Assembly (NCBI GenBank): GCA_036874045.1
Contig: CM072345.1
Location: 5,543,501 to 5,607,500, forward strand
Reading direction: 5' to 3'
Source: Cymodocea nodosa
Taxonomy: Eukaryota > Streptophyta > Magnoliopsida > Alismatales > Cymodoceaceae
DNA length: 64,000 nt
The notes under the pieces are model-generated. The model ran no database searches. It was not told where the DNA came from and saw nothing but the letters and a program-made list of their open reading frames with translations. Positions 4,222 through 31,040 of this stretch are shown one piece after another. Both the position numbers and the translations under genes were made by a program. The first letter of the stretch is position 1. Each line of letters begins with the position of its first letter.

Positions 4222-4574
4222 TGAGTTTTCAGGTCAAAACTCAAACCAACAACTGAATGAAGCTTTTAGGTTGAAGCCACGAACCAAATGATCCTTCTTG
4301 GATCAGACTTTTAGCACATGGAGAGCTTTAAGAATCTTCTTGTAAATCCAGCTTTCAATCGATTCTTTGTTGAACTAAATTTGAGCTTTCTTCTATATCA
4401 ATAATTGATCTGCAATGTATATTGTATCTCTGTATGTAATTGTATCTGTAATCTCACTTGTAAGCTCTTTTTGAATACTGAATGATCTAACTGTATATAT
4501 GCTTGAATATCCAACGATCATATTTTCTCCTCAACGGATTTATTCTACTGTACTTGATTTGACTTCAGTCCCAA

Positions 4575-5440
4575 ATACGATAAGTTACCGTTCAGAAAGA
4601 TATTTCAAGATATCCTTTCGATTTTCTTAACCTTTTAGATAGTTAGCTATGTAACTCTCCGAAGAATGTTTGTAACTCACCAAAAGATCACTTAAGTCTT
4701 TCTACTATGTAGGATTCCAGATCATACAATGCGAGCTATCATTCAATCGGATACTTGTAGCTATAACTTACCGAACTGTTACTTAACTATCGGATAGTTA
4801 GCTATAGTAACTCTCCATTAAGTTTCCAATTGCTTCAATTCAGCACGTGCATAAAAGACTGACTTAAGTTTCGGATGGTTATACCTGTAACTCACCGAAA
4901 CGCTTCAAGATTTCGAATAGTTATCTCCAGTAACTTTCCGATTTTCCTTTTAAGCTTCTGTTTGGATTTCTGCACGTGGGAAATTCAATGACTTAAGTTT
5001 CGGATAGTTAAACTGTAACTCATCGAAACTCTCTTGAAATTTCGGATAGTTATCTAACTCTCCGATTTTTCCTTTTAAGCTTTTAACTGTCGTCTTCTCC
5101 ATTCTACACGTGCGTAATAGGATAACTTAAGTTCCGGAAAGTTATACCTGTAACTCATTGAAAAAGTCGAATAGTTATCTTCTTAACTCTCCAAAAAATC
5201 CTTTAAGCTTCTGTTTTGAATTTCTACACGTGGTTAATTGAATGACTTAAGTTTCAGATAGTTAGCCTTTCTAACTTTCTGATTTTCCTTTTGCTTTCAG
5301 ATAGTTAACTCCTTAATTCTCCGATCATTCAACCAACTGCCTTTCATAACTCTCCAAAGGCTTTATAATTTTGGATAATTATTCTTCTAACTATCTGATA
5401 GTATTGTTGCTGCTTTAAACTTGCTCTTCGGATACTTAGA
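4575..5440. repeat. Palindrome and CACGTG array in copia LTR
   Basis: A degenerate tandem array with a period of about 120-134 bases. CACGTG occurs at 4844, 4973, 5107 and 5227. Each is followed by GACTTAAGTTTCGGATAGTTA-like sequence, then an imperfect inverted repeat CGGATAGTTA...TAACTCACCGAAA, then a second one CGGATAGTTAT...TAACTCTCCGA. CACGTG is the G-box core bound by plant bZIP and bHLH factors; use as an enhancer here is inference. Confidence 0.75.
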
Positions 5441-5609
5441 CCTGTAGTTGTCTGATTTTCCTATAGCTCTATAGCAGTATCTTCTGGAACTTTCTCCATC
5501 TGTTCGTCTACTTTCTGATCTTTTGCTGAGCTATCATATCTGTGAAATACAATTTGGTTTCCTCACATAGGTTTTTGCATTATCAAAATACTAGGGTCCT
5601 AACAAGAAA

Positions 5610-7266: not shown

Positions 7267-8712
7267 CTAGCCTAATTGAATTCTAGTAGGTATCAGGTCC
7301 TGACTTTCATTCCTAATAACTATTAATCCTAATTTCTTGGGAACTACATGGATTGGACTAACCTATGAGCTATTAGAAATCGGATAAATTATGTTATTAT
7401 CTAACCATTTCATTATTTCCTTCCTGACTACTTCTTGAAGGTTTGGATTTAATCTCCTCTTAGGAATTCTATTTGGTTTAGCATTCTCTTCTAAATATAT
7501 GTGGTGACAGCATAAAGTTACACTTAACCCTTTTATATCAGTCATAGTCCATCCTATTGCTTCTTTATAAGTTTTTACTACATCTTTTAATTTAGCAATT
7601 TGATCCTCTTTTAAATCTGAAGCAAAAATGATTGGACATATTCGTTTTTCTTCCAGAAATATATAGGTTAATTTAGGAGGTAAAGGTTTTAAATCTAAAT
7701 ATTGACCATCAGAAGCTAGAGCTCCTAATTGAACATTTTCATTTTCTTTGTAAATCTCTTCTTGATCTCCTTCTACATTTATGCTTTCACTTTCTTCTAA
7801 AGTTTTAGAATTTAGTTGCCTATTTAATTCTTCTTGAATCACATCATCTAGCATATCTCCTTCATCCTCTAAAAAGTCTATAGTATGTAAGGACATTTCT
7901 AACTCAAACTTTTCTGGTTTGAAAATGTTTAATTGAGTATCCTCATTACCATATGCTAACTTCATTACTCCAGTTTTACAATTTATAATAGCCCCTGATG
8001 TTGCTAAGAATGGTCTTCCCAAAATTAAAGATGTATCATGATTTTGATGCTTAATTTGTTGGGAATCCAAAATCACAATATCAATAGGATATATGAAGTT
8101 TTTGATTTTAATTAAAACATCCTCTATTTTTCCTCTAGGGTATCTTATACTTCTATCAACTAATTGAATAATAGTCCTAGTAGGAATTAAGCCTTCTAAT
8201 CCTAAGGATGCAAATATATCACTCGGCATAACATTTATACCTGCACCTAGGTCTATTAAGGTTCTTTCTAGAATGGTATTTCCAATGGTGCATGATATAA
8301 CAGGAATTCTAGGATCAGATAACTTTTTAGGAATTTGTGGCAGAAATAAGGAACTATTTTGCTCAACTAAAAAGACTTTCCTTAAAACTTTTCGCTCTCT
8401 TTTCTTAGTACACCAATCCTTAAGAAATTTAGCACAAGGTGGTATTTTCTGCAATAAGTCTAACAAAGGAATGTTTACTTGTACTTTTTCAAAAATTTCT
8501 CTAATTTTTTCTTGTTTTTCAGGAAATGTTTGTTGTAATCTTTCAGGATAGGGTGCTAATGATTGTGATTTAAAAGATTCTTTATCTTTCATTTCATTTG
8601 TTTGATCATTTTTAGTCTCATTTTCAGATTCAGATTTTTCTTTATTGATTTCTGTGTTTTCAGATATTACATTTTCATTATCATTTTGAATTTTCTTCTT
8701 ATCTACCTTCAT
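7267..8712 (-). pseudogene. Athila gag-pol linker and aspartic protease (AthA)
   Basis: Long open stretch on the minus strand (7363-8712). An N-terminal Lys/Glu/Asn-rich part is followed by the late gag segment (IREIFEKVQVNIPLLDLLQKI) and a retropepsin-like domain: TLIDLGAGINVMPSDIF with the Athila DLGA active site, then RYPRGKIEDVLIKI and the closing LGRPFLAT motif. The C-terminal part (IFLEEKRICPI to WLDNNIIYPISNSS) leads into RT. The ORF closes at 7363 where the family has Trp (SxW before VSP). It is joined to RT through TAG at 7267 in place of the Trp of the [11 protein letters not shown] motif; AthB carries the same stop. Confidence 0.88.
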
Positions 8713-9430
8713 ATTACTTTCTTTTTGAATTCTTGGTGGTATATCAATTCCAGATCTTAATGTTATACATACATCTTCTAGATTTTCATTACTTTCATGA
8801 TGTTTTTGTATTTATGATCTTCAATTGTTTTTAGTTTTAAATTGCAGTCTTTAAATTCTATTGTATTGGTATTTTCTTTTGTCTATATGTCTTACAAATT
8901 ATGTAAATCTGTAACATTAAATGTTTCATTTATGTTTTCCTATTGCATAACTTGTAATTTCATTGTAAATTCATCCAATGCTTTTAATTTTCTTTCTAGA
9001 TCATCTAATCTCAATGCATTCAATTTTTGATCGATTTTCATTATGATTTTTTAGTTTCGTATATGATATCAATTTTAGGTTTTGAATATTCTTTCCTATA
9101 GTTTAATTGATTAACTTCTTGTTGTTGACACATGTATTGTTCCAGTTGTCCATGTTTTACTCTAAGCTACGCTCTAGTCTATCATACCTATCTCAAACTT
9201 CCTTGTCTCTCAACATATTACACATTCTAAACTGACCATCAGTTGGGTAAATTATAGGATTCTCATACTCAGCTCTATTATATTGAATATAATTCATTTG
9301 TTGTTCATGTGATCTAACCATCTCCAACCGTCTTAGTTTCAAACAATCAGAGATATCGTGACCTTCCAAATTGTAGAATTCACATATGCTAACTACTGGT
9401 TTTAGAAATCTTTGAGCATAGCATATGCCA
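8713..9430 (-). pseudogene. Athila gag remnant (AthA)
   Basis: Only the C-terminal part of gag is left. At 9384-9343 the minus strand encodes CEFYNLEGHDISDC, which fits the CX2CX4HX4C zinc knuckle with the second Cys changed to Tyr (TGT to TAT). It is followed by LRRLEMVRSHEQQ and a coiled, Asn/Glu-rich region. A TGA stands at 9193 where CGA (Arg) is likely. Toward 8713 the sequence is broken by further stops. Upstream the leader begins at once, so roughly the first two thirds of gag are missing. Confidence 0.65.
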
Positions 9431-9606
9431 TATTCTCAATTATAAAATAAAACACACAACACTCTCTCTCTATTAAAACAAAATTGCACTCACAATTGCT
9501 TAGCTTCTCAATCCCTAACAACAGTGCCAGAAGACTTGTATCGATTTGTTAACTTCTATTTGTTAGGTGGCACCAGAGAACTTGATTAGTTCCCCGGCAA
9601 CGGTGA
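9431..9606 (-). other. AthA leader with two primer-binding-site-like sequences
   Basis: Athila elements usually prime from tRNA-Asp (TGGCGCCGTTGCCGGGGA). The minus strand shows two decayed matches: A at 9529-9512 (TGGCACTGTTGTTAGGGA) and B at 9606-9590 (TCACCGTTGCCGGGGAA). Each is flanked by CAAGTCTTCT, so the primer region looks tandemly duplicated with about 77 bases between copies. Confidence 0.55.
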
Positions 9607-11581
9607 TAGAAGACTTGTTTGTGGTTGTTAAGTTAATTCTTAAACTTACTTAATTTGTCTTTATACTTATATCAATAATTACTTTTAGAAGTAAACAAAC
9701 AACCTTTCACACAAATTAGATATTAATTCCAATTTGTGTTTAAACTGCAAGTGCATAGTGTATATTATTTTTGTGTACAAGTACAGGTCGATCCCATAGA
9801 GATTGAGTAAGAATTGTGTACTGTTTCAGTTTTTATAATAGAGTTTATATGTGTTCAGTTAAGCACTCCGTTGAGTTACAGTTAACACAACGGACTTAGT
9901 TTGTTGAGTTATGGCTAACTCAACAGATTGACCTCGTGGACTTAAGTTAACTCCATAAGCCTATCTTTCTAGTTAAATACTGCTATTTACAAAGGAATTC
10001 AGCCAACCATTGGGCGGTTCCACAGATTGTAAATAACATCAATTAAGCTCTTTAATGTTAGTTAATATTAGATTTATCATTAAGCAATACTAACATTCAG
10101 ATATTTCAAATAGTAACCATTAAAATCTTTAAGTATCTATAACGAATCAATTTAAGTAAATTGTAAAACTATTTTCTATTTTCTGAATCAAACAAACATT
10201 AAATATTCACAATACTGACAATGATAACATTAATCACGCTACAAAACAAACAATACAACACTTTAATACTAAATATAAACACAGATAATTTGTTGTTTTT
10301 GGTATTTTTGTTTTGATATGTTCCTGAAGATGAATGAAAGGTGAAATGTAAAAATCTCTATCGATAGTAAAAACTTCTGTCACTACATGTGACACGATTA
10401 CACTACTGAAAACTTAATCACTTACAATCTTGCCTCCTCTCCCTATAGAATCGCGAGTCCAAAATTGTAAGATGATCTCCTCTTCAGCATACTAGCATCA
10501 ACCTAAAACTAAGGCTAGAAGCTTTACGATCTCTTGAGATATGAGTCAGTGCTTGGTGAAAATGGCTTCTCTTCCCACGACGCGATCACTCTTCACAGTG
10601 ATTGTCAAGCACCGTGTTTGGCTCGGAATCGACCCGACATCAGGAAAGTATCCTCATAGACCTCCGATGGTTGGTGATTATGGTGGTGGTGTGGACTTTC
10701 AGGGAACTTCTAACGTTGCCTGTAGTTAGCACGGTTCTCTACACTTTTGCACACACACTTTTTCTTCATCTTTTATATTTATTACAGTGGTAACTACTTC
10801 TGCTTAAATGATTAGTTGGATTTCCTTCATTCATATCAACGATGGTGATTTCTTCTTTATTCCACGAGTGAATTCCTGCATGATATGTGCAATTGTGGTT
10901 TTCCTTCTGTTTCTACAACTACTATAGTGGCAAATTAGAAAATATCTAGTCCGTAGAGTTACAGATAATTCAGCAGACTTACTTCGTTGATTTAACTATA
11001 AAACACATGTAATAAAGAAATAAGTAGTTTAGATGTTTCAGATAGTTATAACTATAAATATCCGAAACTTATATGCATTTTGGATAGTTAGCACCTAACC
11101 TTCCGAAAGATAACTTAAGTCAAGTTTTCAGAATGCATCACATGTCCTCAGGCAGTTTTATGATAAAAAGATATTTCGGATACTTAAAAATCTAACTATC
11201 TGATGCTCAGATTCATTTCGGATAGTTACTAGATAACTTACTGAAAATTCATTTAAGTCATGCATTAAGGTTTCAACACGTGTATTCCAGGAAATAATAA
11301 AATATTCTTTAAGCATTTAAACATAACTATCCAATACATGCAATATAACTCTACGAAATAGCAAAAAATTCGGATACTTAAAAATTAAAAACCTACAACT
11401 TACCAATAGTTCAGAAATGTACTTAATTCACATTAATTCCCTGAAATTATGCAGATTCTTTCATTAAAGCATATAACAGTACAATTATAACATAATAGCT
11501 TAATTCTCATATGATAAGCTAAATATTATGCAATTAATCATCATTTAACCCTTAATATTATGCACTTTTTTATTCTAAACA
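9583..11581 (-). repeat. 5' LTR of AthA
   Basis: Aligns over its whole length with the 3' LTR of AthB (15500-17779). Outer end is TGTTTAGAAT on the minus strand at 11581. The inner end is set by alignment with AthB and overlaps primer-like copy B, so it is uncertain by about 30 bases. It contains TTGAGTTA/TAACTCAA palindromes (9865-9960), a GC-richer patch (10530-10740) with a short antisense ORF that I do not regard as a gene, and CGGATAGTTA-type palindromes (11035-11400). Confidence 0.8.
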
Positions 11582-13074
11582 CATCACTAGTTTCAATTGG
11601 CAAACATGAATTTAAATCAACTACACTAGAAGATAAAAAGAAAATACATACAGAACCTTTTCTTTTAACAATAAACTTATGTTCATCTGTAATTTTATCA
11701 ATAATTTTGCATACATTATCTTCAAACAATACATAGTATCCGTTATTAAATAGTTTTATAACACCCAGTAAATTAAATCCTAGGTTTTCTACATATAGGT
11801 CATTCGAAATAACACAAGTAGGAGTTATTTGAACATTTCCCATACCTATGATTTTATCCTTGCTTTTGTTTCAAGATATTACACTTCCTTTCTTGGTATT
11901 TGTAAAATTTTTCAATAGGCTTTTCTGATAAACTATCCAAAATCCATTTTGATGTTGTTATCTCCCCAAACTCATCTGCCATGAAGCACATATGAGCAAC
12001 ATCTTCTGACTCTTGTTCTTCTTCTAAATGTGAAGATTTTGATGATAATTCCTTAGATTTGGACTCTTCTAATGTGTCATTCCAAGTGACCTTCAAAGTC
12101 TTTTTCTTGTAAAACTTTTTCTAAGTTTTCTGAGCCTTCTTCTTCTAATTTATCCTACTTTGCTTTTCATTTTTCCTTATAGGACAATCTGGAGAAAAAT
12201 ATCCAAGTTTCTTGCAATTGTAATATACGTACTTTTTAGATAAAGAATTCTTTTCATTCAATGACTTTGATGTTGATGGTTTGTCATTTATGTTCCTTTG
12301 TTGTTTCCTAGCTTTCCATGCTTTCTTGAATTTCCTAGTTAGTAAAATCAAATCCTCGTCAAAATCAGTTGATATTTCAGAATCTGAATTAATTTCAAAG
12401 GCTATTTCTTTCTTCATTTTTAATTTGTTGTGACTCAATGAATCATTTAATTGAACTTCATAAGTAGTTAAATTTCCTATAAGTTCATTTATAGTATAAA
12501 CATTTAAGTCTCATGATTCCTCAATTGATGTCACTTTCTGAGACCATTTAGAACTTAGGGATTTAAGAATTTTTCTCACCAAATCCTTCTGTTCAAAATT
12601 CTTTCCTAAGCATTTTAAAGAGTTTATGATATCTAGGAATCTAGAAAACATCTCAAAAATACTTTCGTCTTCATGCATCTTAAAGAGTTCATACTTATGA
12701 AATAACATATTAATTTTAGTCTCTTTAACTTGAGAAGTACCTTCATATGAAACTTCTAATGCATGCCACACCTTATAAGCAAATTTATATGTCAACATCT
12801 TATTGAACTGTTCATAACTCAATGCACAAAATAAGATATTTAAGCCTTTTGCATTTAGAGTTTCATTTTGTTTTTCAGTAACTGTCCAAGTATTATAAGG
12901 AGTAGATAATGGATTATATGGTATAAAAATCATGAACCACAACTTGTGATCAATACTTTGAAGAAATATTATTATCCTATATTTCCAATATTCAAAATGT
13001 ATTCTGTCAAATAAAGGAGGATGGTTAAGATTTTAGCTTTCATACAAAGAAAAATTACCATTTCCAGTAATCAT
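11582..13074 (-). pseudogene. CopA gag to pre-integrase, internally deleted
   Basis: Copia polyprotein on the minus strand, start ATG at 13074 aligned with the CopB gag start. Gag (12942-12145) contains the DKLWxM and KYELFKMHEDE motifs of the UBN2/gag family. The zinc knuckle (about 12230) reads YYNCKKLGYFSPDC, so the first Cys and the His are both Tyr. After VTWNDT the Ser/Glu-rich tail jumps at about 11957 from CFMADEFGE to TTSKWILDS of protease; about 1.1 kb present in CopB (30650-31790) is absent, and the protease active-site segment after DS is also lost. The pre-integrase start (MGNVQITPTCV) continues to 11582, where AthA cuts it. Non-functional. Confidence 0.85.
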
Positions 13075-13204
13075 CTTACCTTAGATTTTTCAACCTATAA
13101 GATTTTAAATAGTTTAAAACTTTCAAAAACAACTTGAGCCTAAAATCAACAAAGTTAAACGTATGCTCAGATATTAATTTTTGTTTAAAAACAAGGAAGG
13201 TAGA

Positions 13205-15430: not shown

Positions 15431-15499
15431 GACAAATGATAGTACATTTATCTATTTCTCTTAATGATATCAATAATAACATTAGAAATTTTATCTCCT
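15431..15499 (-). pseudogene. CopA env-like ORF, C-terminal end
   Basis: Aligns on the minus strand with the last codons and stop region of the CopE env-like ORF (51095-51165). It is cut at 15499 by AthB and continues at 28869. The last five bases, CTCCT, are the AthB target duplication. Confidence 0.85.
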
Positions 15500-17779
15500 T
15501 GTTTGAGTTTTCCCAGCACTACACTAGAAAAACTTGGATTTGGTACTTCTATTTTTACTTAATTAATTTATCTTTATGCCTATTCTTTCTTTTAGAAGTA
15601 AACAAACAACCTTTAATACAATTTAAATATTAATTCCAATTTGTACTTTAACTAAGTGTATAGTGTCTATTGTATCAGTGTGCAAGTACAGGTCAATCCC
15701 ACAGGGAATTGCTGATGAACTTGAGAACTATTTGCTTGTTAAAAATCAAATTTATATATTCAATAAGCTCTCCGTTGAATTATAGTTAACTCAATGGACT
15801 AAGTTTGTTGAGTTATGGCTAACTCAATGGACTAATCTCGTGGACTTATGTTAACTCTACGAGCCTGTCTTTTCTTTTTAATACTGTTATTTATAGAGGA
15901 ATTCGGCCAACCATTGGGTGATTCCACAGATTGTAAATAACATCAATTAAGCTCTTTAATGCTAGTTAACATTGGATTTATCATTGAGCAATACTAACAT
16001 TCAGATAATTCAAACAGTGACCATTAAAATCTTTAAGTCTTTTGAACAAATCAATTTCAGTAAACTGTAAAACTAAAATAAACATAAAACAATCACAACA
16101 CTGACAAAGATAACATTAATCACGATACAACACAAACAATACAACACTCAAATACAACATACAAACATAGATAAATTATTTTTGGTATTTTTGTTTTAAT
16201 ATGAACATGGAAATGGGCGAAAGGTGAAATGTAAAGTAATCTCACTTGACAGTAAATACTTCCGACACTACTTGCAACACGATTACACCACTGAAAATTA
16301 AACCACTTACAATCCTGTCTCCTCTCCCTATAGAATCGCGAGTCTAGAATTGCAAGATGATCTCCTCTTCAGCATATAGGTATCAACCCGAAGCCAAGGC
16401 TAAAAGCTTTACGATCTCCTAAAATATGAGTCGGTGCTTGGTGAAAATGGCTTCCCTTCCTGCGGCGCGATCACTCCTCACAGTTGTTGTCAAGCACTGT
16501 GTTTGGCTCGGAATCAACTCGACATCAGGCAAGTATCCTCACAGACCTTCGATGGTTGGTGATTATGGTGTGGTGATGATGGTGATGATGATGGTTGGTG
16601 TGGTACTTCAGAGAATTGCGACGCTGATCCTCCTCTACACACACTGCTACCCATCGATCACACACGCATTTCTTTTTTTCTTCTTTTCTTTTATATTTCT
16701 TTAGTAGTAACTGCTTCTGCTTGAATGGTCGGTTGGATTTCCTTCATTCATATCAACGGCGATGCTTTCTTCTCCCTACGCGATTGAATTCCTACGTGAT
16801 ACATGCAAACATGGTTTTTCTCTTCCAACTGTTTGTTCCTACAACCGCTATAGTGGCATATTAGAAAATATAAAGAAATAAGCTGCTAACATAACACGTT
16901 ACCTTAGTGTAATATTCATGTAACTCAACGCATACAGTTATGCTAACTTAATGAGTTAAACATGTGCATCTCACGTGATATACTAAAGCATTTAAATTCA
17001 ACACATGCACAAATTTAACTATCCGATGCTCAGGTGCATTTCGGATACTTATAAACTTAACTATTCGATGCTCAGATGCATTTTAGATAGTTACTAATAA
17101 CTCACCGATATATAACTTAAGTAAATCTACCAGATCTCGACACATGTCAACAGTAGTTTAATCATAAAATAACATTTCAGAGAGTTACAAGTCTAACTAT
17201 CCGATGCTCAGATGCATTTTAGATAGTTACAGCTAACTCACCGAAAATCCACTTAAGTCTATTTCCCAGAACATCACACGTGTCCTTAGCTATTTTCTAA
17301 ATAAAAAGAGATTTCGGAGAGTTACAGGGATAACTATCCATTGGCTAGCTGCAATTTCGGATAGTCATAGATAACTCACTGAAAGTTCACTTAAGTCATT
17401 CATTATGGTTTCAACATGTGTACTTCAGGAAATAATAAAATATTCTCTCAAAACATAACTGTTTGACAATTTAAACATAACTATCCGATACATGTTCGGT
17501 CTGTTAAACATAACTGTCCAAATATGTTCGGTATGTTAAACATAACTGTTTGAAATATCAGAAAATTTGGATACTTAAGAATTTCACAGCTTGCAACTTA
17601 CTGACAGTTCATAAATGTACTAAATTAACATTAATTCCCCCACATTAAGCAGATTCTTCAATTAAAGCATATAACAGTGCAATTATAACATAATGGCTTA
17701 ATTCTTATATGATAAGCTAAATATTATGCAATTAACCATCATTTAACTATTAATAATATGCACTTTTTCATTCTAAACA
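15500..17779 (-). repeat. 3' LTR of AthB
   Basis: 2280 bases, starts TGTTTAGAAT on the minus strand at 17779 directly after the polypurine tract, and ends ...CAAACA at 15500. The last 45 bases (15500-15545) align with the primer-like copy B region of AthA, which is unexpected inside a 3' LTR. It contains a GC-richer patch (16420-16600) with a GATGGT microsatellite, and palindrome/CACGTG modules at 16990-17600. Confidence 0.88.
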
Positions 17780-17793
17780 CTTCCCCCATACCT
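17780..17793 (-). other. Polypurine tract of AthB
   Basis: Minus strand AGGTATGGGGGAAG directly before the TGTTTAG start of the LTR; this primes plus-strand synthesis. A second tract of the same kind, GGTATGGGGGGGAGG, lies at 19118-19132. Confidence 0.8.
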
Positions 17794-19582
17794 AAATTTT
17801 GCTAGTCCCTTAGCAAACTAAGATCTAATTAATTGGTCTTTAAAAGTGCTAGAATTAATTCTTCCCCTTTGTTTTTCTTCTATTTAGCATAAAAATAAAT
17901 TATGTATGTTTTAGTAATCAACCTGTAAATATACTTAGAATATATGTAAATTACATACAAAGTATATCATCATCATATAGGTGTTAATTATATTATCGTT
18001 TGTTCTTCTTTTCATCATCTGTCATCCTGAATTTTCCAATAAGATTTCTAGAAGAAATTTCAACAACATACGAATCAAAGTACAATCCAATTCAATCTGA
18101 TTAAGATAAGTAGAATAAAGAATTGTATCTCCATTAAACAACTTCAAAAGTCAATTCCAGATTCATATTTCAGCAATTCTAGATAATAGAAAATATACTC
18201 AATTCATAAGATATCTGTATTTCACAAAACACTTGTATCTTTTCAGAACAGTATGTGTATTTTTTTCTTTTTTTTTCGTACTTTAAAAGTTAATTTGACA
18301 AGCTTGAATCATATAAGAGCTTTCTAATGTACCCATGTAACGAGCTTTCAGTCAACAGTCCCAGATCTGATCAGGATCTTAGGTTGCCAGATTTTAAGAG
18401 TCCTTTTTCAGGTCAACAATCCTTGCATACTTATCTGCTCAAGTACAAAAGGCTCGTGATCAAACAAGTCAATAAACTCTCAAAATTTTCCCCTTTTTTT
18501 TTCTTTTTGTCTTCTTTTTCTCTTTTTTTTTTTTTTTTTTTTACAACATAACTACAAACACAAAACAAAACATTAATCACCTACTATATATGTATGTATT
18601 TCATTAATACAGATGCAGTAAAACACCAATCTCATATAGTTCTACTTCTATCATTTATTGAAAATATGAATCCATCTCAATAAGCTCATACTTTTTCTAT
18701 AGTTTAATAAGATCTACACATAAATCATTCTACAAGTTCAATCAGTCAAATTAAATGTATCTTTAATCATATGTGTTTCATTTAATTTAGAATTCACATC
18801 TAAGCTCTTTCAGGACTTCAGATAATTCATTGATTTTTCATTAAGCATTCTGATTTCATTTTAAGATCGTGAAACTGTTAAACTCATGAAATTCAGAAAA
18901 ACATAAGATACTATATCTAGATTTGCATAACTAGTAAATTCAATAGCATCTTATATAGCCTTCTAAATATAACATTCAAGCAGTTTATAAAAAATTTTAC
19001 AGTCTCAATTATCGGAAAGTTACAGCAAGTTCATAAAAATTTTCAATTTCCTCAAAACTTTGCAGTACTATTTTAATTTCTTTAATTAACAAACTTACAT
19101 GGTTGTTACTTCAATTACCTCCCCCCCATACCAACATTTTGCATTGTCCTCAATGTAAAAGATTTGACAATAAGTATAGTAATTGTAGTAGGCATGAATA
19201 CAGTTTTGCTTGAATTAAAATTCAGGATGAGTAATTAGTTACATACCTTGTTTCATTTGTATCACCTTCTGCATATTTTGATTTTTGATTCTAAAAAACT
19301 TTTCATTCACAGATAAAAGCAAAATATAAAACAAAATAACATTTAACAGATATTAATAAATCAGTGTCTTGTGTGGAACCCAAGCTCTTATGCCTTTGAT
19401 GGCTCACAAGCAAGCCAATTGGTTTCCCAGAACAGATACCAACAAACTAGATTGATATTTTGTTTTTTTTTTTTTTCTTTTATAAAATAAAAATGAAAAC
19501 TATAAAAAAAAAATTTATCTTTTTTTTTTTTTTTAACAATAAATGCAGAATACACACAACATTAAATACACAAAATCACAGC
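17794..19582 (-). other. Long 3' untranslated region of AthB, partly shared with CopB
   Basis: No gene. Bases about 17900-18980 match, in the same sense relative to the element, the region between pol and env of CopB (34970-35960); the best part is 18297-18490 against 35390-35590, over 90% identical by eye. T-rich runs on the plus strand occur at 18494-18542, 19460-19475 and 19520-19534 (15 T). The motif TTTTGCATTGTCCTCAATG at about 19138 follows the upstream polypurine-like tract and is typical of Athila 3' regions. Confidence 0.75.
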
Positions 19583-20749
19583 TTAAGAACATGATTGAAA
19601 AGTAGAAACAAATGGAATAAATGTATCAGTCAAAGCAAACTTTATAGGCATAATTCTTCTTGCTATTAATTCTGTTTTAATGCAGTTCTTGTTCCTTCTT
19701 AATTTGTAAACATGTAATATATTATAAATTCCAAATACGAGTTTATTACCATTAATGATATGTAATGCAGAAAGGGATCCTTTTTGGTTCCAAGGTAATG
19801 TAGTAGTTTCTATTTCTACATCTATTTCAATATACTCCTCTTCCCACTTCCATTCCTTTATGTCTTCCATAATCCATATTTGAAATTTCATTAGTTCATC
19901 CCACCATCTTATCAGACATAAAGTAGGATCATCTTCTTCATTATACCACATTCCTATTTGAATTTCATTAAATTCTGCAGATGGTGGTTTAGCTATTTCA
20001 CTCGGTACAGTTAAAATTTCTATATATTCATCATAACTGTCTATGCTCACTATGTATAAATCAGATCCATATGCTAATGATATCTCCGTGACTAGATATA
20101 TATATCCATCAAGTATGACATGTGTTTGGTTAATTAATGATTTCTGTCCTAAATATATCGTAATATTTTCATTCCAAGATCTGTTCAGAAAATTATACAC
20201 ACTTAAGCGTAAATCTTCACCCCAATTTCTTGTAGGTCTCCAATAATATAATTTGTCAGGAATTGTAGAATTTTTATCAGAAAATATTAAAGCTGACCCA
20301 CAATTTACAGTTGGTGCTTCAAATCTATTAGGTCTTCCTATATTCCATTCTTCTCCTGTTATAGGATTTCTTATCAAAATATCAGGTAATAATAAACTTG
20401 CATACCTTGGTCTCGTCTTGTATATGATTAATCCTTCATCTATCCCCATAATATGATTTATTCCTTCTAATGCATTCGGTGGAATTCCAGTAGTTTCTTC
20501 CATAGCTAGATATTCATGGGTATTTGAACTACGATTAAATGACCTCTATATGAATCCATCTCTAATCTTAGTCATTTTTGCAGCTTGTAGTCCCTAAAAA
20601 TATTTTTCTTCAATACAGTCTTTAATTTCCTTTGATACACAACACAGCCTGCATAGATCTTTAGCTGACAAGTTACTTAGTACTTCCCTTAGTGCATCCA
20701 ACGGTAATTGCATCAATTCCATTTGTCGATTCAGTCTAAAGCTTTCCAT
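19583..20749 (-). pseudogene. F-box protein gene copy captured by AthB, two nonsense codons, no introns
   Basis: F-box proteins are substrate adaptors of SCF ubiquitin ligases. On the minus strand from the ATG at 20749 (alternatives at 20722 and 20713) the frame is continuous for 388 codons. An F-box motif sits near the start (QLPLDALREVLSNLSAKDLC then RLCCVSKEIKDCI), followed by about 330 residues rich in Trp, Tyr and Ile that look like an F-box-associated beta-propeller-type domain (NPITGEEW, DKLYYWRPTRNWG, WWDELMKFQIWIMED), ending near 19583. Two TAG stops, at 20594-20596 and 20546-20548, interrupt it in frame; both sit where Trp or Gln would fit. There are no introns and no frameshift. 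Length is typical of the family. A run of 15 A lies about 50 bases after the stop. It is in the sense orientation of AthB, between env and the polypurine tract, consistent with mRNA capture. I cannot name the parent gene. Confidence 0.85.
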
Positions 20750-21637
20750 TCTATAAATATTTGTTGTTGGATGAAGTTGAATCAGCTGCTTCTCCTTCCA
20801 GTTCCTCCAAAGCATTCTCCTTTCTTTTAAAAGTGCTGGTAACTCGTAAATAACATTTTGTTTTATATATATACAGTGCATCCATAAAGTGAATAAATCT
20901 CATTGCAAGAACGTGGCTTACAACATGCATTGTGGTTCCTATTTTTATGGGTACGTGTACCACTACTAATTTGAAATTTTGGTAACCGCTAAATCGACGA
21001 AGCTTCGTTCGTGGTTAAAAGAATAACCGTTCTGCTTAATCTACGAACTAACCTCGTTGAGTTACAGAAAACTCAACAGAATACAGTCGGTTACTATTGC
21101 TAACTCCATGGACTAACTTCGTTGAGTTACAGATAACTCAATGGAGTGACTTTATATTATATTACTGACCTCGTTGAGTTACGATTAACTCAATGGACTT
21201 ACTTCGTTGAGTTAACACTTAGCAACATCTAAGTTTTACTCTCATAAGTTCCTCTTTGTTCTTTTTTTTTTTTATTCTGCTAACTGTAATAAAGTTAAAT
21301 CTATGTCATTAATGCATCATTCTAATTAAAATACATTTAAATCTGAGCATTATATAAAGATTTAACTTGCAGGTCATTTTATGTTATGCAGAATTTACAT
21401 TTTACCTTATAACATGTAGAAATTTTTAAGCAGTTATCCTATCATTCAGCAAATTGTAAATCTGTTATATATTCATTCATAAAGTTTCACAAATTACATA
21501 ATATTCAATAAATTCCATTCATTTCACATCCAAAACATGTATGAAAATTGCATCTGAAAAATTTACATTCATTAATATGAATCAATTACATTAAAAGTAC
21601 ATCATACAATTTTACACAAGTAGAGGAACAATACAAT
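20750..21637 (-). other. Spacer between AthB env-like ORF and F-box gene
   Basis: No convincing gene. The F-box frame is open upstream to 20881 without further family signal. Bases 21040-21215 hold three TTGAGTTACAGATAACTCAA-type palindromes. The rest is AT-rich and unremarkable; any promoter of the F-box copy would lie here. Confidence 0.6.
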
Positions 21638-23850
21638 TTAATCTCTATGCCTAAGTTCATCTACTTCCTTCTGGAGTTTTTCTAATTGAAGCTCTAATTG
21701 ATTAATCCTCTCTACTACTCCTGTAATTCCTCTAGAAGGTACAGTTAGTTCTGTAGCTACAAAATTTCTGTATTCTTTCATTGAAATGGTTCTTGATCTG
21801 ATCCTTTTTGATGTCCATTTAGTGAAATTGATATAGTCCACCATCAGCAGTGGAATCAAATCTCTATAAAATAATTTCTTCTTCACTATTTTTAGCTTGG
21901 AGATAAAAACTACAGATCAATTTATTTGGATCTTATTTACAACTACATATGTGGCCCATTTGACAAATTGACTTAATTCAATGTCATGGCCCTGTCGTTG
22001 ATAGACATTCTTAATCAGAATGTTAGCTACCATGTGTGCTTTACCATTTAAATGCTTCAATCTATTTAATAATGGCACACCAGGATTGATAGCTAAACAA
22101 TCCTTAATTTGCTGTTCAGTCCATTCAACTACAGTTGTATCTTCTAAAATTTTTGTTCCTTCATTCTTTAAACCAAAAATATTGTGGAGAAGCTCTGGTG
22201 TTATCTATACATCAGCTTCCTCCACGTTTGAAATTAATCCTCCTTCTCCTTCTCTCAAATTTGCATAGAAACAGGGTACTAAATTCTCATACACTGCATG
22301 CCCTCTTTCTTGAGATATAAATTGTAGTAGACCTTGGAATTCAAATAATTCTTTGATTTCTTGCATTCCATCCCAATTTACTGGTCTACTGTAAATAATG
22401 TCGTAACCCCTTATTTCTTGATATTTGGTATAAGCTTCCTAACTACAAAAATGTACTTCATTCAAAATTGTTGTTTCAGTCGGGTCAAGAAGGTGACTTT
22501 GTTGCTCTAGAGGGGTTTGCTCTTGCTCTTCCTCTTCTACAGGCTGCATTTGAATATTTTCTACAAATTTCTGAATTTCTATTTTTGTTTGTGGTGGTGA
22601 GCTGGCAGAACTCTCCACTCTGTCTTGAATTCTCTCCATAAATTGCTGAAGAGTTTCTTGTTCTTCAGTGGAATCTGTGAAATTATTTTTGTCCAAATGG
22701 CTTCTTTCAGCCTCTTCATTTTCTGCTCTTTCTTTTTCCTCCTGACTACCAATCTGTTCTGTTACTATTCTTTCTGATTTTGTAATAGATTGGGATGGAG
22801 TGACGGGCAATTCAGTTTCTACCCTAATTTCTGTTTCTTCTTGTATAGGTTGTAGACTAATTTCAGCCTGATTTTCTTCTTTTCTTTGCTCCTCTTGCTC
22901 CTCCTTAGAATCGGATAGCAGGTTAACAAAAATCTGCTCCACAAGCCTTGTAAAAATTGGTACTTCAGATTTAATTTCCTCATCTTCAGGCACTTTTTCT
23001 TTTCCTTTTTTTTTTCTGATTAGTTGTGCCTGTTCTTCCTCTTCATCTTCTGAAATTAAATCTACAAAAATAGGCTCTATAGGCCTTCGAGCCACAGGTA
23101 CTGGCTCTTCCTATTTAACTTTTCCTATAATTACTGGTCTTGAAGGACTAGCTTCATCTCCTTTTGTAGCAGGTTCGGCAGCAGTTCTGGCAGTAGCTTC
23201 GTGATGCTGTTCCAATTTGATTTTATATTGGGCTTTCAACTTTTCTACAACCCTCTTTTTGTAAAGTGCATCAAACACTAGGTGTGCTTTGGCCACTACC
23301 AAATCTTCTGATTCTCCTTGGTTCTTCCCAACTTGATCCAGTTCTGCAAATTCTCTTATCTCTTCTTCAGTCGAAGGCCCCATCATTTCTGCTCGTGCCA
23401 ACGACTTAAATGGTAGAACTAAAGGTTCAGGCTGCTGCTCCTCAGGAACAGGTCTTTTAGTAGTCGGCTCCTCTTGTCCTTCAATTGCCTCTTGTTGTTC
23501 CTGTCGCCATATTGCCCAACTTCCTCGACCAGCAATGCGTTTCTTAAACCACAATCTGGCTTTACGTTGAATTAGCTCTAGGGCTACTTCATTGTTTGGC
23601 CAGATTTTTTTTCTTTGCTAACTACAATTTCAGTTGCTACTTTGATTCATGTCTCCATTATATGGGGTATTTGTATACCACAATCTACTAATATTTTTCT
23701 TAATCTAAAAAGTTCAGATTCTACCTTTTGTAATTCTTTTTCTCTCGTTGTATTTCTGATCTTCTGCCTTGCGTGCCATTCTTCAGATTCCTTCAGAAAC
23801 TGTGTGATGTCCACTACCTCTTCCCAGAATTCAGGCGTTATCTTCCTCAT
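21638..23850 (-). pseudogene. Athila env-like ORF (AthB), broken
   Basis: Start ATG at 23850 (MRKITPEFW). The N-terminal part is helical and Arg/Glu-rich (WHARQKIRNTTREKELQKVE), followed by a long acidic, Gln-rich middle (22440-23550) and then the conserved core: HLNGKAHMVANILI, QRQGHDIELSQF, ATY, NKIQINW, KKLFYRDL, and a short C-terminal coiled coil (QLELQLEKLQKEVDELRHRD). One frameshift occurs in an A8 run near 23610. In-frame stops: TAG at about 23111 and 22436, TAG at 22205 where AthA keeps CAG, and TGA for Trp in INWS near 21915. Without these it would be about 735 residues. No signal peptide seen; the 'env-like' name reflects position only. Confidence 0.82.
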
Positions 23851-23945
23851 TGTGGAGTTACATAACAGCACGGAATCGCTCTGATTTCTACTGTTCTAAA
23901 TTCTAAATGATTTGTCGGATAATGCCCCCAAAACCCTAGGTTTTA

Positions 23946-23954
23946 GTTTAAATA
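23946..23954 (-). promoter_or_regulatory. TATA-like box upstream of AthB env-like ORF
   Basis: TATTTAAAC on the minus strand, 96 bases before the ATG at 23850; at the same position as TATTTATAC in AthA. Promoter role is inference. Confidence 0.4.
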
Positions 23955-24382
23955 AGTCCTAAGTTTAGGCAGGTAATCGGGTCATTTCCCGAACCAACTA
24001 TTACTATTTTGTCCAAGGTTTTAACTACAGTACTCCGTTGAGTTACAGTTAACTCAACGGAATAAGCTCGTTGATTAACTCAAGACACAACGGAGTAAGC
24101 TCGTTGAGTTAAGCATAACTCAACGGACTCCTCGTACAAGCAAGTATAATAATAATAATATTACAGAGAATAGTTTTTTTTCTTCTTTTTTTCTTTCGGT
24201 TGAACCGATACTATGTTTCGGTAAAACCAATATTTTTTTCTGAAAATTAATATACATATTTTTTATGTTCCGGTCATACCGATGGATCCAATTGGTTGAA
24301 CCACAATGATTTTTATGTTTTATATATATTTTTAATGTTTTTTTTTATATAAATATATATAAACATAAAAACTGATTTCTCA
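23955..24382. repeat. AthB pol-env spacer with palindromes
   Basis: No gene. A perfect-arm palindrome TCCGTTGAGTTA-CAGT-TAACTCAACGGA lies at about 24034-24061, with a second copy near 24085-24125. TTCGGTTGAACCGAT-type palindromes occur at about 24196-24310, followed by a TA-rich run up to the integrase stop. Confidence 0.7.
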
Positions 24383-25501
24383 CTAAGTAAAGCTCAAGTA
24401 GTCCTCTACTCTGACTTCTTCTATAATTTCAAAGGAGCTTTTTGGTGCTTTCAAAATAGGTTTAAGTCTTTGTCCATTTACTTTAAATATATTTTGATTT
24501 TTAGGATTTTCAATTTCAATAGCTCCATAAGGATAAACATTTCAAACTATGTAAGGTCCTGCCCATCTAGATTTCAATTTTCCTAGATGGTTATGGAGTC
24601 TAGCCATATAAAGATATACTTCTTGTCCTATTTCAAAGTTTTTTGGAATAATTTTTCTATCATGCTAAAATTTCATTTTTTCTTTTTCTCTTATAGTCTT
24701 CGAATAAGCTTCATTTCTAAATTCTTCGAATTCAATTAATTGCATTTTTCTATTTTCAGCAGCTTGATTTAAATTAGTGTTCAGAGTTTTTAATGCCCAA
24801 TAAGCTTTATGTTCTATTTCAGTAGGTAAATGACAACTTTTTTCATATACTAACCTAAAAGGTGACATACCTAAGCTCGTTTTATAAGCAATTCTATAAG
24901 CCCAAAGTGCATCTATCAATCTATTAGCCCAATTTGTTCTAGTAGGATTTACTACTTTTTCCAAGATTAATTTAATTTGTTTGTTTGCACTTTCTACTTG
25001 TCCACTTGTTTGCGGATTATATGATGTTGCAATTTTGTGGTTTACTCCATATTTCTTCATTAAGGCTTCAAAACTTCTATTACAGAAATGAGTTCCTCTA
25101 TCACTGATAATAGCTTTAGGTATTCCAAATCTGGCAAATATATTTGTTCTTATAAATTGAATTACCACTTTGTTGTCATTAGTTTTTGTAGGAATAGCTT
25201 CTATCCATTTTGATACATAATCCACCCCTAACAATATGTAATTAAATTGATTAGACATAGGAAATGGACCCATAAAATCTATTCCCCACACATCAAAGAT
25301 TTCAACCTCAACAATAGGATTAAGAGGCATCATATTCCTCTTTGATATTCTTCCTATTTGTTGACATCTTAAACAACTTAAGCAATATTTATGAGCATCT
25401 TTGAATAGTGTTGTCCAATAAAACCCACATTGCAGAATTTTTGTAGTAGTTTTCCCTGAACCAAAATGCCCTCCACAAGCTTGGTCATGATAGAAAGACA
25501 A
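24383..25501 (-). pseudogene. Athila integrase (AthB)
   Basis: Minus strand: zinc finger with HDQACGGHFG and CLSCLRCQQ, then the catalytic core [10 protein letters not shown] (Asp), IISDRGTHFCN (Asp), TSGQVESANKQIK (Glu), so the DDE triad is intact. The C-terminal domain is interrupted by TAG at 24665-24667 where AthA has TGG (FWHDKK) and by TGA near 24548 where Arg is expected. The final stop is at 24383. One frame runs through both stops. The core itself is undamaged, so a recent active source is plausible. Confidence 0.9.
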
Positions 25502-26851
25502 TATGCTCGAATATTCAGTTTCTGGAACACACCTCCTTAAAACCAGATCAAGACATTTCTTAAATTAGTATGGGTATTCCCAATAGTAATATTTTACTCT
25601 TGAGAAAAATAATTTCTTATCCTGTCTATTCCAATCCTTAGGTGTTAAACCAGTAACTAAGTAATTAACTATGTCTGCATACTAAGGTATTGTGTTGATG
25701 GCCATTAATTGTTCATCAAGAAAATTATCCTTAATTTCATTATTTGATTTTTCTATTTGTAATCTTGATAAATGATCTGCTACTACATTCTCACAACCTT
25801 TTTTATCTTTAATTTCTAGATCAAATTCTTGTAATAATAATATCCATCGGATCAATCTAGGCTTAGTTTCTTTTTTCTTTATTAGATGTTTTAGAGCTGA
25901 ATGATCCGTGTATACTATTACTTTAGCTCCAATCAGATATGATCTAAACTTTTCTAAAGCAAACACAACAGCTAATAATTTTTTTTCAGTAGTTGTGTAA
26001 TTAACTTGAGCATCATTTAAGGTTTTGCTTGCATAATGAATCACTCTAGGAGATTTTTCTATCTTCTGTCCTAACACTGCTCCTACAGCAAAATCAGAAG
26101 CATCGCACATTAATTCAAATGGATGGTTCCAATCAGGTTTTTGAATTATAGGAGTTGAAATTAAGCTAGTCTTAAGTCTGAAAAATGCTTCCTTGCAATT
26201 TTTATCAAAGTTAAATGGAACATCTTTTAATATATTAGTTAAAGGTCTAGCTATCTTGCTAAAGTCTTTAATAAATCTTCTATAAAAACCAGCATGTCCT
26301 AGAAATGATCTAATATCTTTTACTGATTTAGGTTCTGGTAGATTAGAAATTACTTCTATTTTAGCTTTATCTACTTCCAACCCTTTTTTAGAAACAACAT
26401 GCTCTAAGACTATTCCTTGTTTAACAATGAAGTGACAATTTTCCCAATTTAAAACTAGATTTTTTTCCACACAACGTTTTAATATTTGGTCTAAATTGCT
26501 TAAACACACTTCATATGAGTTGCCATATACAGTAAAATCATCTATAAATATTTCTAAAAAATCTTCAGTCATTCTAGTAAATATACCTTGCACACACATT
26601 TGAAAGGTAGCTGGCGCATTGCATAATCCGAATGGCATTCTTTTAAAAGCATAAATTCCATTAGGACAGGTGAAAGTTGTTTTCTCTTGATCCTCTAATG
26701 CTACTGGAATTTGATTATACCTTGAATACCTGTCTAGGAAACAAAAATATTCTTGCCCTGCTAATCTTTCCAGCATTTGATCTATAAAAGGTAAGGAAAA
26801 ATGATCTTTCCTAGTCACAGCATTCAGCTTCCTATAGTCTATACATACTCT
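25502..26851 (-). pseudogene. Athila reverse transcriptase and RNase H (AthB)
   Basis: Minus strand: [33 protein letters not shown], the catalytic box FIDDFTVYG (usual FMDD), the linker [20 protein letters not shown], then RNase H with [14 protein letters not shown] (Asp), [15 protein letters not shown] (Glu), TDHSALKHL (Asp) and VADHLSRL. One open stretch of 378 codons. It ends with TAG at 25682 where the family has Trp (PWYADIV), the same stop as AthA. Bases 25502-25681 encode the integrase N-terminal stretch SRVKYYYWEYPY with another TAA near 25567. Confidence 0.9.
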
Positions 26852-27823
26852 CTAGCCTGATTGAATTCTCGTAGGTATCAAGTCTTGACTTTCATTCCTA
26901 ATAACTGTTAATCCTGATTTCTTGGGAACTACATGGATTAGACTAACCCACAAACTATTAGAAATTGGATAAATTATATCATTATCTAACCATTTAACTA
27001 TTTCCTTCCTGACTACTTCTTTAAGGTTTGGATTTAATCTCCTCTTAGGAATTCTAACAAGTTTAGCATTCTCTTCTAAATATATGTGGTGACAGCATAA
27101 AGTTGAACTTAACCCTTTTATATCAATCATAGTCCATCTTATTGCTTCTTTATAACTTTTTACTACATCTTTTAATTTAGCTATTTGATCCTCTTTTAAA
27201 TCTGAAGCAATAATGATTGGACAGGTTCATTTATCTTCTAGAAATATATAGGTTAATTCAGGAGGTAAAGGTTTTAATTCTAAATGCTGCCCATCAGAAG
27301 CTAGAGCTCCTAATTGAATATCATCATTTTTTAAATTAATTTCTTCCCGATCTCCTTCTATATTTATGCTTTCACTTTCTTTTAAAATTTCAGAATTGAT
27401 TTGCCTATTTAATTCTTCTTGAATCACATCATCTAACATATCTCCTTCATCCTCTAAAAAGTCTATGGTATGTAAGGACATTTCTAACTCCTCAAACCTT
27501 TCTAGTTTGAAAATATTTAATTGAGTATCCTCATTACCATATGCTAACTTCATTACTCTAGTTTTACAATTTATAACAGTCCCTGATGTTGCTAAAAATG
27601 GCCTTCCCAAAATTAAAGATGTATCACTATTTTTATGCTTAATTTGTTGGGAATCCAAAATTACAATATCAATAGGATATATAAATTTTTTGATTTTAAT
27701 TAAGACATCCTCTATTTTTCCTCTAGGGTATCTTATACTTCTATTAGCTAATTGAATAACCGTACTAGTAGGAGTTAAGCCTTTTAATCCTAAGGATGCA
27801 AATATATCACTTGGCATAACATT
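26852..27823 (-). pseudogene. Athila protease C-terminus and linker (AthB)
   Basis: Begins abruptly on the minus strand with NVMPSDIFASLGLKG, just after the protease active site, which has been deleted. It continues with RYPRGKIEDVLIKI, LGRPFLATSG, the acidic region and the linker into RT. TGA at about 27224 replaces an Arg codon, and TAG at 26852 replaces the Trp before RVCIDYRKL. 27227-27832 is open. Confidence 0.85.
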
Positions 27824-27839
27824 AAATAACATTTACTTC
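27824..27839. other. Deletion junction with short filler
   Basis: Protease sequence stops at ...CATAACATT (27823) and LTR sequence resumes at TATCAACGGCG (27840, matching 16749). The 16 bases between include AAATAACATT, a near-copy of the adjoining AACATT, as in templated end-joining. Confidence 0.7.
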
Positions 27840-28868
27840 TATCAACGGCGATGCTTTCTTCTCCCTACGCGATTGAATTCCTGCGTGATACGTGCAAACG
27901 TGGTTTTTCTCTTCCAACTGTCTGTTCCTACAACCGCTACAGTGGCATATTAGAAAATATAAAGAAATAAGCTGCTAACATAACGCGTTACCTTAGTGTA
28001 ATATTCATGTAACTCAACGCGTATAGTTATGCTAACTTAACGAGTTAAACATGTGCATCTCATGTGATATACTAAAGCATTTAAATTCAACACGTTCATA
28101 AATTTAACTATTCGATGCTTAGGTGCATTTTGGATACTTATAAACTTAACTATCCGATGCTTAGATGCATTTCGGATAGTTACTAATAACTCACCAATAT
28201 ATAACTTAAGTAAATCTACCAAATCTCGACACGTGTCAATAGTAGTTTAATGATAAAATAACATTTCAGAGAGTTACAGGTCTAACTATCCGATGCTCAG
28301 ATGCATTTCGGATAGTTACAGCTAACTCACCGAAAATCCACTTAAGTCTATTTCCCAGAACATGACACGTGTCCTCAGCTATTTTCTAAATAAAAAGAGA
28401 TTTCAGAGAGTTATAGGGATAACTATCCGATGCCCAGCTGCAATTTCGGATAGTTATAGATAACTCACCGAAAGTTCACTTAAGTCATTCATTATGGTTT
28501 CGACACATGTACTTCAGGAAATAATAAAATATTCTCTCAAAACATAACTGTTCAGCAATTTAAACATAACTATCTGATACATGTTCGGTCTATTAAACAT
28601 AACTGTCCAAATATGTTCGGTATGTTAAACATAACTATCCGAAATATCAGAAAATTCGGATACTTAAGAATTTCACAGCTTGCAACTTACCGACAGTTCA
28701 TAAATGTACTAAATTAACATTAATTCCCCCACAATAAGCAGATTCTTCAATTAAAGTATATAGCAGTGCAATTATAACATAATGGCTTAATTCTTATATG
28801 ATAAGCTAAATATTATGCAATTAACCATCATTTAACAGTTAATAATATGCACTTTTTCATTCTAAACA
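27840..28868 (-). repeat. 5' LTR of AthB, inner half deleted
   Basis: Nearly identical to 16749-17779 of the 3' LTR, ending in the same ATTCTAAACA, then the CTCCT duplication. It contains six or more CGGATAGTTA/TAACTCACCGA palindromes with ACTTAAGT and CACGTG boxes. High similarity to the 3' LTR suggests a fairly young insertion. Confidence 0.9.
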
Positions 28869-29470
28869 CTCCTAGATGCCTAATATCATTTCTGATGTCA
28901 TTTAGCACTACATCTAAGTCAGGAGGTAGCTTGGGTTGTTGTTGTACTTGATCTGAATAGTTTTGTTGTTGTTGTTGTTGTTCTGTAAGGTCAGGTTGTT
29001 GTTGTTGCATTTGTTGGTATTTTTACAAATCTTTTACACTAAATGCTCTCATGCCTTTAGTTTTAGAGGGCCAGTTATATAAGTTTAATTGGCTTGCAAT
29101 AATTTGACATATAGCATCACCAAAAAATAATTTTGAACTCATATGCTGTAGTTGATATATGAAAACATCAAACCAATTTATTTGAATTCTGTGTAGTATG
29201 CCATAAGTTGCATATAAACAACTTCTACTTACTTCTAGATTATGTCTGACTCTCTAAAATATATTTACATGTAGAATATTTCTAATAAACCTAGCTTCTA
29301 CATTCAGATTTTCCATTAATCTCATTTCAATATATACACCTGGAATCTATGATAAAGATTAAATGTCCCATTCCAGTTGTCTAACAACGTCAAATCTGTT
29401 TGTAACAACAACACCTTCATTCCTTAATCCCAAAACTTCCAAAATTAATTTAGGAGATAAAGTTTTACCT
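28869..29470 (-). pseudogene. CopA env-like ORF, central part and poly-Gln tail
   Basis: Minus strand continuation of 15431-15499. From 29470: SPKLILEVLG-like start, RFIRNILHVN, RVRHNLEVSRSCLY, ATY, HRIQINWFDVF, SKLFFGDA, NWPSKTKGMRAF (here Trp is intact), then the Gln-rich tail and LPPDLDVVLNDIRNDIRHLG. Over 70% identical by eye to the CopB and CopE copies. At about 29470 it stops against the CopB leader in opposite orientation. Confidence 0.85.
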
Positions 29471-29533
29471 ACTCCTTTGTTTTAAAGTTTTTAGACTGTT
29501 TAAAATCAAATAGGTTGAAAAATCTAAGGTAAA

Positions 29534-31040
29534 ATGACTACTGGAAATGGTAATTTTTCTTTATATGAAGGCCAAAATCTTAATCGTCCTCCTTTATTTG
29601 ATGGAATACATTTTGAATATTGGAAATATAGGAAGACTGTTTTTCTTCAAAGTATAGATCATAAGTTGTGGTTCATGATTTCTAAACCATATACTTCGTT
29701 AACTACTCCTTATAATACTTGGACAATTACTGAAAAAGAAAATGAAACTCTGAATGCTAAGGGCTTAAATATTTTAATTTGTGCAATGAGTTATGAATAG
29801 TTCAGTAGAGTGTCGGCATATAAATCTGCTTATGAGGTGTGACATGCATTAGAAGTTTCACATGAAGGTACTTCTCAAGTTAAAGAGACAAAAATAAACA
29901 TGTTGATTTATAAGTATGAACTCTTTAAGATGCATGAAGACGAAAATATTTCTGAGATGTTTTCCAGATTTCTTGATATCATAAACTCTTTAAAATGTTT
30001 AGGAAAGAATTTTGAACAGAAGGATTTGGTGAGGAAAATTCTAAGATCCCTAAGTTCTAAGTGGTCTCAGAAAGTAACATCAATTGAGGAATCACGAGAT
30101 TTAAATGTTTATTCTATGAATGAACTTATAGGAAATTTAACAACTTATGAAGTTCAATTAAATGAATCACTAAGTCACAACAAACTAAAAATGAAGAAAG
30201 AAATAACCTTCGAAATTAATTCAGATTCTGATATATCTACTGATTCTAACGAGGATTTGATTTTGCTGACTAGGAAATTCAAGAAAGAATGGAAAGCTAG
30301 GAAACAGGAAAGGAACAAAAATGATAAACCCTCAACGTCAAAATCATTGAATGACAAGAATTCTTCATCCAGAAAGTATGTATGTTACAACTGTAAGAAA
30401 CCTGGACATCTTTCTCTAGATTGTCCTATAAGGAAAAATGAAAAGCAAAGTAGGACAAATCAGAAGAAGACGGCTTAGAAAACTCAGAAAAAGTTTTACA
30501 GGAAAAAGGCTTTGAAGGTCACTTGGGATGATACATCTGAAGAGTTTGAATATGAGGAATCAACATCAAAATCTTCACATTCAGAAGGAGAACAAGAGTT
30601 AGAAGACGTTGCTCATGTGTGCTTCATGGCAAATGAGTCTGAGGTAATATCTGATTCTGAAAGTCATTCAGATTTCAACTTTGATGAATTATTATGTTCT
30701 TATCATGCATTATTACAAAAACTTAAAGTATGTAAACTGGAAAATAAGAATATTAGAAAATCTTCATCCATTATGGAAGAAGAAAATTGTTTCTTGTCTA
30801 CTACTTTAGAAAAGTTTAAATGTGATAATGAAAATCATGTTAGAGATTTGCAAAAATTTAGATTTAATGAATGTATCTTGCATGAACAAATACAGATTAT
30901 AAATGCTGAAAAATTAAAGATAGAATCTAAAAATGAAATGTTGAGAAACAATATAAATGAACTTGAATTAGAGATAGATAAATTAAAACTGAGAGAGCAA
31001 TATTTAAATTCTACCTTTAAGAAATGAAATTTAAGTCAAA
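29534..31040 (+). pseudogene. Copia gag (CopB)
   Basis: ATG at 29534 in MTTGNGNFSLYEGQNLNRPP; the N-terminal motif PPLFDGIHFEYWK is the DUF4219-type gag start. The UBN2-like body has MHEDENISEMFSRF and LGKNFEQKDLV. The zinc knuckle CYNCKKPGHLSLDC (about 30391) is intact. The Ser/Glu linker leads into a long coiled coil (30700-31024). In-frame stops: TAG at 29798 where CopA has CAG, TGA at about 29841 where CopA has TGG, TAG at 30476 and TGA at about 31026. The frame is otherwise continuous from 29534 to 31026. Confidence 0.88.

Follow-up and report, generated by a model that had tools for sequence, protein, structure and literature searches.

What kinds of additional gene do plant LTR elements and other selfish genomes carry? 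Extra frames in Ty3/gypsy elements are said to have been surveyed in 2012. In EVD/Copia, splicing yields a short GAG RNA (shGAG), and in the poleroviruses the P0 protein is an F-box protein. P0 is also a silencing suppressor (PMC7582759). In plant LTR elements, aORFs are found between pol and the 3' LTR, and splicing is known for such frames, as in Bagy2 (review PMC7264820); aORFs have also been reported from sunflower Athila elements (PMC11728184). The aORF products described in the available parts of these two papers are env-like, Transposase_32-like, transmembrane or unknown, and transduced genes are described as remaining at a copy number of one or a few (PMC7264820, PMC11728184). Host genes, for example NLRs, can be retroduplicated inside LTR elements, in which case there is a multi-exon host parent (PMC5664825). 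TaChr6G576 of Thlaspi arvense is an F-box 'LTR-gene', a single gene that was later tandemly duplicated (PMC8764390). In the accessible portion of the literature, we came across no description of an F-box gene that resides in a lineage of LTR elements.

Here we describe an F-box frame in AthB, an LTR element within the 64,000-nucleotide stretch of Cymodocea nodosa DNA that was analysed (the window). F-box genes tag proteins for breakdown. As in EVD/Copia, splicing would decide which element protein is made, but in EVD/Copia it makes GAG, whereas here it would remove the capsid and leave the F-box frame. Like the aORFs, the F-box frame reads in the sense direction, lies between pol and the 3' LTR and recurs across copies; unlike the aORFs described, it encodes a recognisable F-box protein, is present in more than 100 copies and has a capsid frame in its intron (PMC7264820, PMC11728184). 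It shares with TaChr6G576 the tie of an F-box family gene to an LTR element, but TaChr6G576 is a single gene and the frame described here appears to be resident in an element lineage (PMC8764390). As with the retroduplicated NLRs, the gene lies inside an LTR element and its intron has been lost, but the NLRs have a host parent, whereas the intron-bearing form found here is the element (PMC5664825). Like polerovirus P0, it is an F-box protein encoded by a selfish genome, a likeness in the kind of protein and not in sequence (PMC7582759). Additional genes of plant LTR elements are mostly without recognisable function; this one specifies an F-box protein with a testable pathway, signs of past selection and a capsid gene in its intron.

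Results

AthB has LTRs, a 5-bp target duplication, a polypurine tract (PPT) and an integrase, features that are general to LTR elements (Table 1). Athila is the name that we assume for the lineage of AthB-type elements. Because the capsid was found in the F-box intron and not at the three 5' ends read (AthA, L027 and L028), the lineage is called Athila-like by resemblance and is not filed as a standard Athila member. The 5' LTR of AthB breaks off after about 1 kb, at 27823-27840, directly abutting the protease region, and two PPT-like G runs are separated by about 1.3 kb. In the region called env, three frames within 21638-23554 gave no Pfam family above the cut-off. The LTR pair (16751-17781 versus 27840-28870) is 94.6% identical over 1031 bp (K2P 0.057), which would correspond to about 2 million years at 1.3e-8, a rate that may not be that of the host (PMC5664825).

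Table 1. Positions of AthB features in the window, ordered along the forward strand
Feature	Position	Strand	Basis
target duplication CTCCT, copy 1	15495..15499	.	5-bp match at both element borders
LTR element AthB	15500..28868	-	LTR pair, target duplication, integrase
3' LTR	15500..17779	-	similarity to 5' LTR
polypurine tract adjoining 3' LTR	17780..17789	-	sequence reading
second PPT-like run	19120..19133	-	sequence reading
15-A run in A-rich tract of aligned copies	19520..19534	-	alignment of copies
exon 2: F-box domain and C-terminal part resembling the F-box-associated domain, two TAG	19583..20731	-	Pfam/NCBIfam matches, frame reading
exon 1/exon 2 junction, site of exactly missing intron of about 1.5 kb	20731..20732	-	comparison with intron-bearing copies
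exon 1 coding end (MESFRL)	20732..20749	-	exon 1 homology, then GTATGT in intron-bearing copies
TATA-like stretch upstream of exon 1 (putative promoter)	20861..20873	-	in segment common to 12 aligned copies
region called env in first-pass annotation; short open frames	21300..24178	-	open-frame listing
integrase frame	24665..25501	-	Pfam rve 3.1e-16
protease/RT region (label presumed)	25500..27823	-	collinear with AthA, L027, L028
truncated 5' LTR abutting the protease region, without PBS or 5' gag remnant	27840..28868	-	LTR comparison
target duplication CTCCT, copy 2	28869..28873	.	5-bp match at both element borders

The F-box frame (20749..19583) runs on the minus strand from an ATG at 20749 to a TAA at 19585-19583 and comprises 388 codons. 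This is element sense, the integrase also being on the minus strand, and the frame is broken by two in-frame TAG codons (20596-20594 and 20548-20546). The Pfam F-box profile (PF00646) matches it with an E value of 4.1e-11, and three other copies with 6e-11 to 8.2e-11. The C-terminal part resembles NCBIfam F_box_assoc_1 (TIGR01640; E about 5e-7 to 6.5e-7) at 29 bits against a curated cut-off of 37.9, and in the Pfam profile comparison it did not reach the FBA_3 threshold. The AlphaFold model of the protein (pLDDT 36) is too poor for a fold search or for an SKP1/SCF reading. The first-pass annotation was right in describing a 388-codon frame with an N-terminal F-box and two TAG codons, in placing the gene inside an element with a target duplication at its borders (CTCCT on both sides), and in reporting no intron in it, an absence that points to splicing.

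A PDB sequence search with the F-box protein gave no matches. Two F-box queries of a protein database drew 372 and 1522 candidates, none of which reached E 1e-3, in a word-based search of a kind that misses distant relatives; an integrase query run as a control scored 7665 of 7995, with plants among the matches listed. Viral contigs yielded 135 stretches fitting the pattern and no relatives among them.

How widespread is the F-box in the host genome? A PF00646 scan of its 374.6 Mb gave 4219 first-look candidates, 150 of which were scored, and the DNA was read at 58 of these: the first 8 of the ranking, 20 of the 22 that follow, 20 from further down and 10 chosen because of their long open frames. 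All but one of the matches examined (57/58) are homologous to the AthB F-box over the part read, the short stretches covering about 200 codons or less. Many of the best F-box domain matches are thus element genes, and in genomes of this kind the size of the F-box family may be overestimated. The sole examined match outside the family, L005 (C19:2183534-2186650), is an open 452-aa frame and possibly a cellular F-box gene.

Element segments flank the F-box in 18/18 family copies with longer flanks (L009-L026), the segments matched being one or more of the integrase, the env-called region, the upstream segment, the downstream region, the PPT region and the LTR; several of these copies are interrupted by other insertions. 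The search for the F-box at the same place in other element copies, raised with the initial annotation, found it there as part of the element in the one genome searched, which is much of the result that the annotation had set, for distant species, against its own reading. A protein search of the host genome (7045 candidates) scored at least 108 full-length copies, query included, with 92-100% identity; 36 of the 108 contain no stop and 72 contain at least one. By its place in these sequences, the F-box appears to be an accessory gene that resides in an Athila-like lineage of LTR retrotransposons.

Six copies were read across both intron borders. In each, exon 1 is followed by GTATGTAATTAATC, which provides a GTATGT donor (6/6), and exon 2 is preceded by ACAG, or by ACAA in L024; AthA has the donor GTATGTAATTAATC as well, beyond the left edge of the window. 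The exon matches are separated by a stretch of 1456-1613 bp, the lengths for L011 and L021 including two exon-like bases after the AG. AthB, L016 and L025 are without exactly this stretch, AGACTG being joined directly to AATC. An intron end was found in 36 of 40 further matches and the spliced join in the other 4, the corresponding numbers being 17 and 3 in 20 copies picked by similarity. When up to 2 mismatches are allowed, the genome contains the spliced join at 207 places, against 0 for the reversed-pattern control. A tree of 15 copies groups the spliced L016 with the intron-bearing L018 (ultrafast support 92), and the spliced L025 with the intron-bearing L019 and L024 (support 100), AthB falling outside the latter group. 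The seven spliced copies in a tree of 55 are seven separate tips, with node supports of 0.09 to 0.97. Judged from these trees, exact intron loss is on separate branches; recombination between RNAs could inflate the number of splicing events counted. L016 and L025 keep the integrase and upstream regions, so the spliced RNA would be otherwise long. The AthB copy most likely arose by reverse transcription of an RNA from which the intron had already been spliced, and spliced genomic copies of this kind would constitute a datable fossil record of splicing.

Of the 12 aligned copies, 7 have the exon 1 ATG (MESFRL), whereas L010, L011, L012, L021 and L026 lack it; in these five, the ATG of exon 2 would serve as the start, for a frame of about 380 codons. 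Splicing would then be needed to remove the upstream capsid frame and not to build the F-box frame. The upstream segment common to the 12 aligned copies includes a TATA-like stretch, where an internal promoter is possible, though the box itself is variable among them.

The intron of L024 contains an open 354-aa frame that matches Retrotrans_gag (2.6e-20). This capsid frame matches upstream of the F-box in 14/16 longer unspliced copies, L024 counted, the exceptions being the rearranged L014 and L015, and it is absent from the spliced L016 and L025 (0/2). Stops or breaks interrupt it in most of the other copies inspected, with 3-5 stops in 4/5 gag frames counted. In L024 the capsid frame is open, yet the acceptor reads ACAA instead of ACAG. 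The capsid frame was also sought at the three 5' ends read (AthA in the window, L027 and L028), with no match; the shorter frame there we take to be a gag remnant without capsid. The order of parts is LTR, remnant, protease/RT, integrase, env-called region, exon 1, capsid within the intron, F-box exon 2, PPT and LTR.

Selection was assessed against a null in which the same base changes were moved to sites with the same base and neighbour. The set consisted of AthB and nine L copies (L010, L016-L019 and L021-L024); L009, L011, L020 and L025 were dropped because their length cannot be divided by three. The choice of copies, by F-box score or by an open frame, favours intact ones, and pairs share branches and are not independent. 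All 17 pairs with L021 or L010 gave a relative non/syn of 0.48-0.65 (p 0.002-0.007, 400 shuffles), and L017/L022 gave 0.55 (p 0.005); the remaining 27 pairs ranged from 0.59 to 1.12, with p below 0.05 in 4. Codons 46-380 alone, with the F-box codons left out, gave 0.50-0.63 in seven older pairs (p 0.0005-0.025) and 0.83-1.15 in three closer pairs, and the F-box codons alone gave 0.28-0.47 in four pairs. Eight tests in shifted frames gave 0.87-1.53. Internal-branch NG86 omega on the fitted tree was 0.60 (95% 0.37-1.04). The older pairs show past purifying selection on the F-box frame relative to this null, and the non/syn pattern fits selection during lineage activity followed by decay after insertion. 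Raw NG86 was rejected as proof of selection, the value being 0.48 in frame but 0.48 and 0.67 in shifted frames, and was replaced by the context-matched null.

Discussion

The best overall explanation, to which we assign a probability of about 0.8, is a resident two-exon F-box gene with the capsid in its intron and a retrovirus-like splice switch, AthB being derived from spliced RNA. The place of the gene, the borders of its intron, the capsid frame inside that intron, the exact intron losses on different branches and the past selection are read from the sequences themselves. From these we infer splicing, expression from the spliced RNA, a promoter at the TATA-like stretch, SCF-type action on a host factor and capsid supplied in trans. 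The unspliced RNA would give capsid, and in the spliced RNA the F-box frame would be brought beside the leader and give the F-box accessory protein, with MESFRL added in part of the copies. The switch would sit downstream of pol, in a retrovirus-like arrangement. An RNA without the intron, but keeping pol and the rest, would have been reverse-transcribed and integrated as AthB, its capsid coming from other copies. Having neither capsid nor 5' end, AthB would depend on such copies.

What might the F-box protein do? A tentative proposal is that the lineage has its own SCF substrate adaptor and a splice switch between capsid and adaptor, and that the adaptor would send a host defence protein of the silencing or DNA-methylation machinery to destruction, as a P0 counterpart in an endogenous element. 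A defence factor as target is our favoured guess, by analogy with polerovirus P0.

The first-pass annotation took the F-box for a host mRNA captured by this one Athila copy. An intronless frame followed by an A-run would be in keeping with such a capture, but the F-box is present in 18/18 copies with longer flanks, at the same site, and the claim is not borne out. A form with an intron does exist, as a search for an intron-containing parent would have it, but it sits inside the element and is the element itself. The 15-A run is likewise real, 48 bases past the stop where about 50 had been given, but its reading as a copied mRNA tail was rejected: an A-rich, length-variable tract is found in 13/13 other aligned copies, and homology continues past it. 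Capture by one copy is therefore scarcely credible, and a cellular parent could still lie behind the first origin of the F-box in the lineage. Loss of the intron at the DNA level, through deletion or gene conversion, in place of splicing ahead of reverse transcription, is also very improbable. A single loss could be passed among copies by gene conversion, but the loss is exact between the GT and AG borders and appears on separate branches.

A passenger F-box, acquired once and amplified with the element without being of use to it, would be in keeping with the closer pairs, most of which are indistinguishable from neutral, and with the stops in 72/108 of the best-scoring copies. We consider it unlikely, since older pairs have fewer amino-acid changes than the context-matched null, in the C-terminal part too, and the out-of-frame controls do not. 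A different kind of alternative concerns origin and is compatible with a resident two-exon gene: the lineage might be a fusion, its 5' part containing pol and its 3' part, with leader, splice donor, capsid, acceptor and F-box, having been supplied by another element. In that case the F-box may occupy the former env place of the second element. The order leader, donor, capsid, acceptor and gene does resemble a retrovirus minus pol, and the 5' part keeps the presumed gag remnant without capsid, but no donor element, and between the two parts no second set of ends, came to light in the copies read, and we regard such a fusion as possible but doubtful.

Several minor observations concern the neighbourhood and relatives of AthB. 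AthA (window 54-9610 plus L026) is a second element of the same lineage in the same orientation, its intron-bearing F-box, L026, being just left of the window. Near 9600 it has a PBS-like CCGTTGCCGGGGAA, of presumed meaning for the lineage. At the 5' end of AthA, at about 9300 in the window, the residues are spaced much as in a zinc knuckle, but Tyr takes the place of the second Cys (CEFYNLEGHDISDC), and L027 starts alike (CEFYNS). L012 and L013 (C12, near 13.0 and 12.8 Mb) have a like layout and an F-box interrupted at one common point by about 2.3 kb, either through local duplication or as a sub-lineage with an insert. Two inverted repeat arms, at 11959-13128 and 29480-30649 of the window, are each 1170 nt long, 89% complementary and 16 kb apart.
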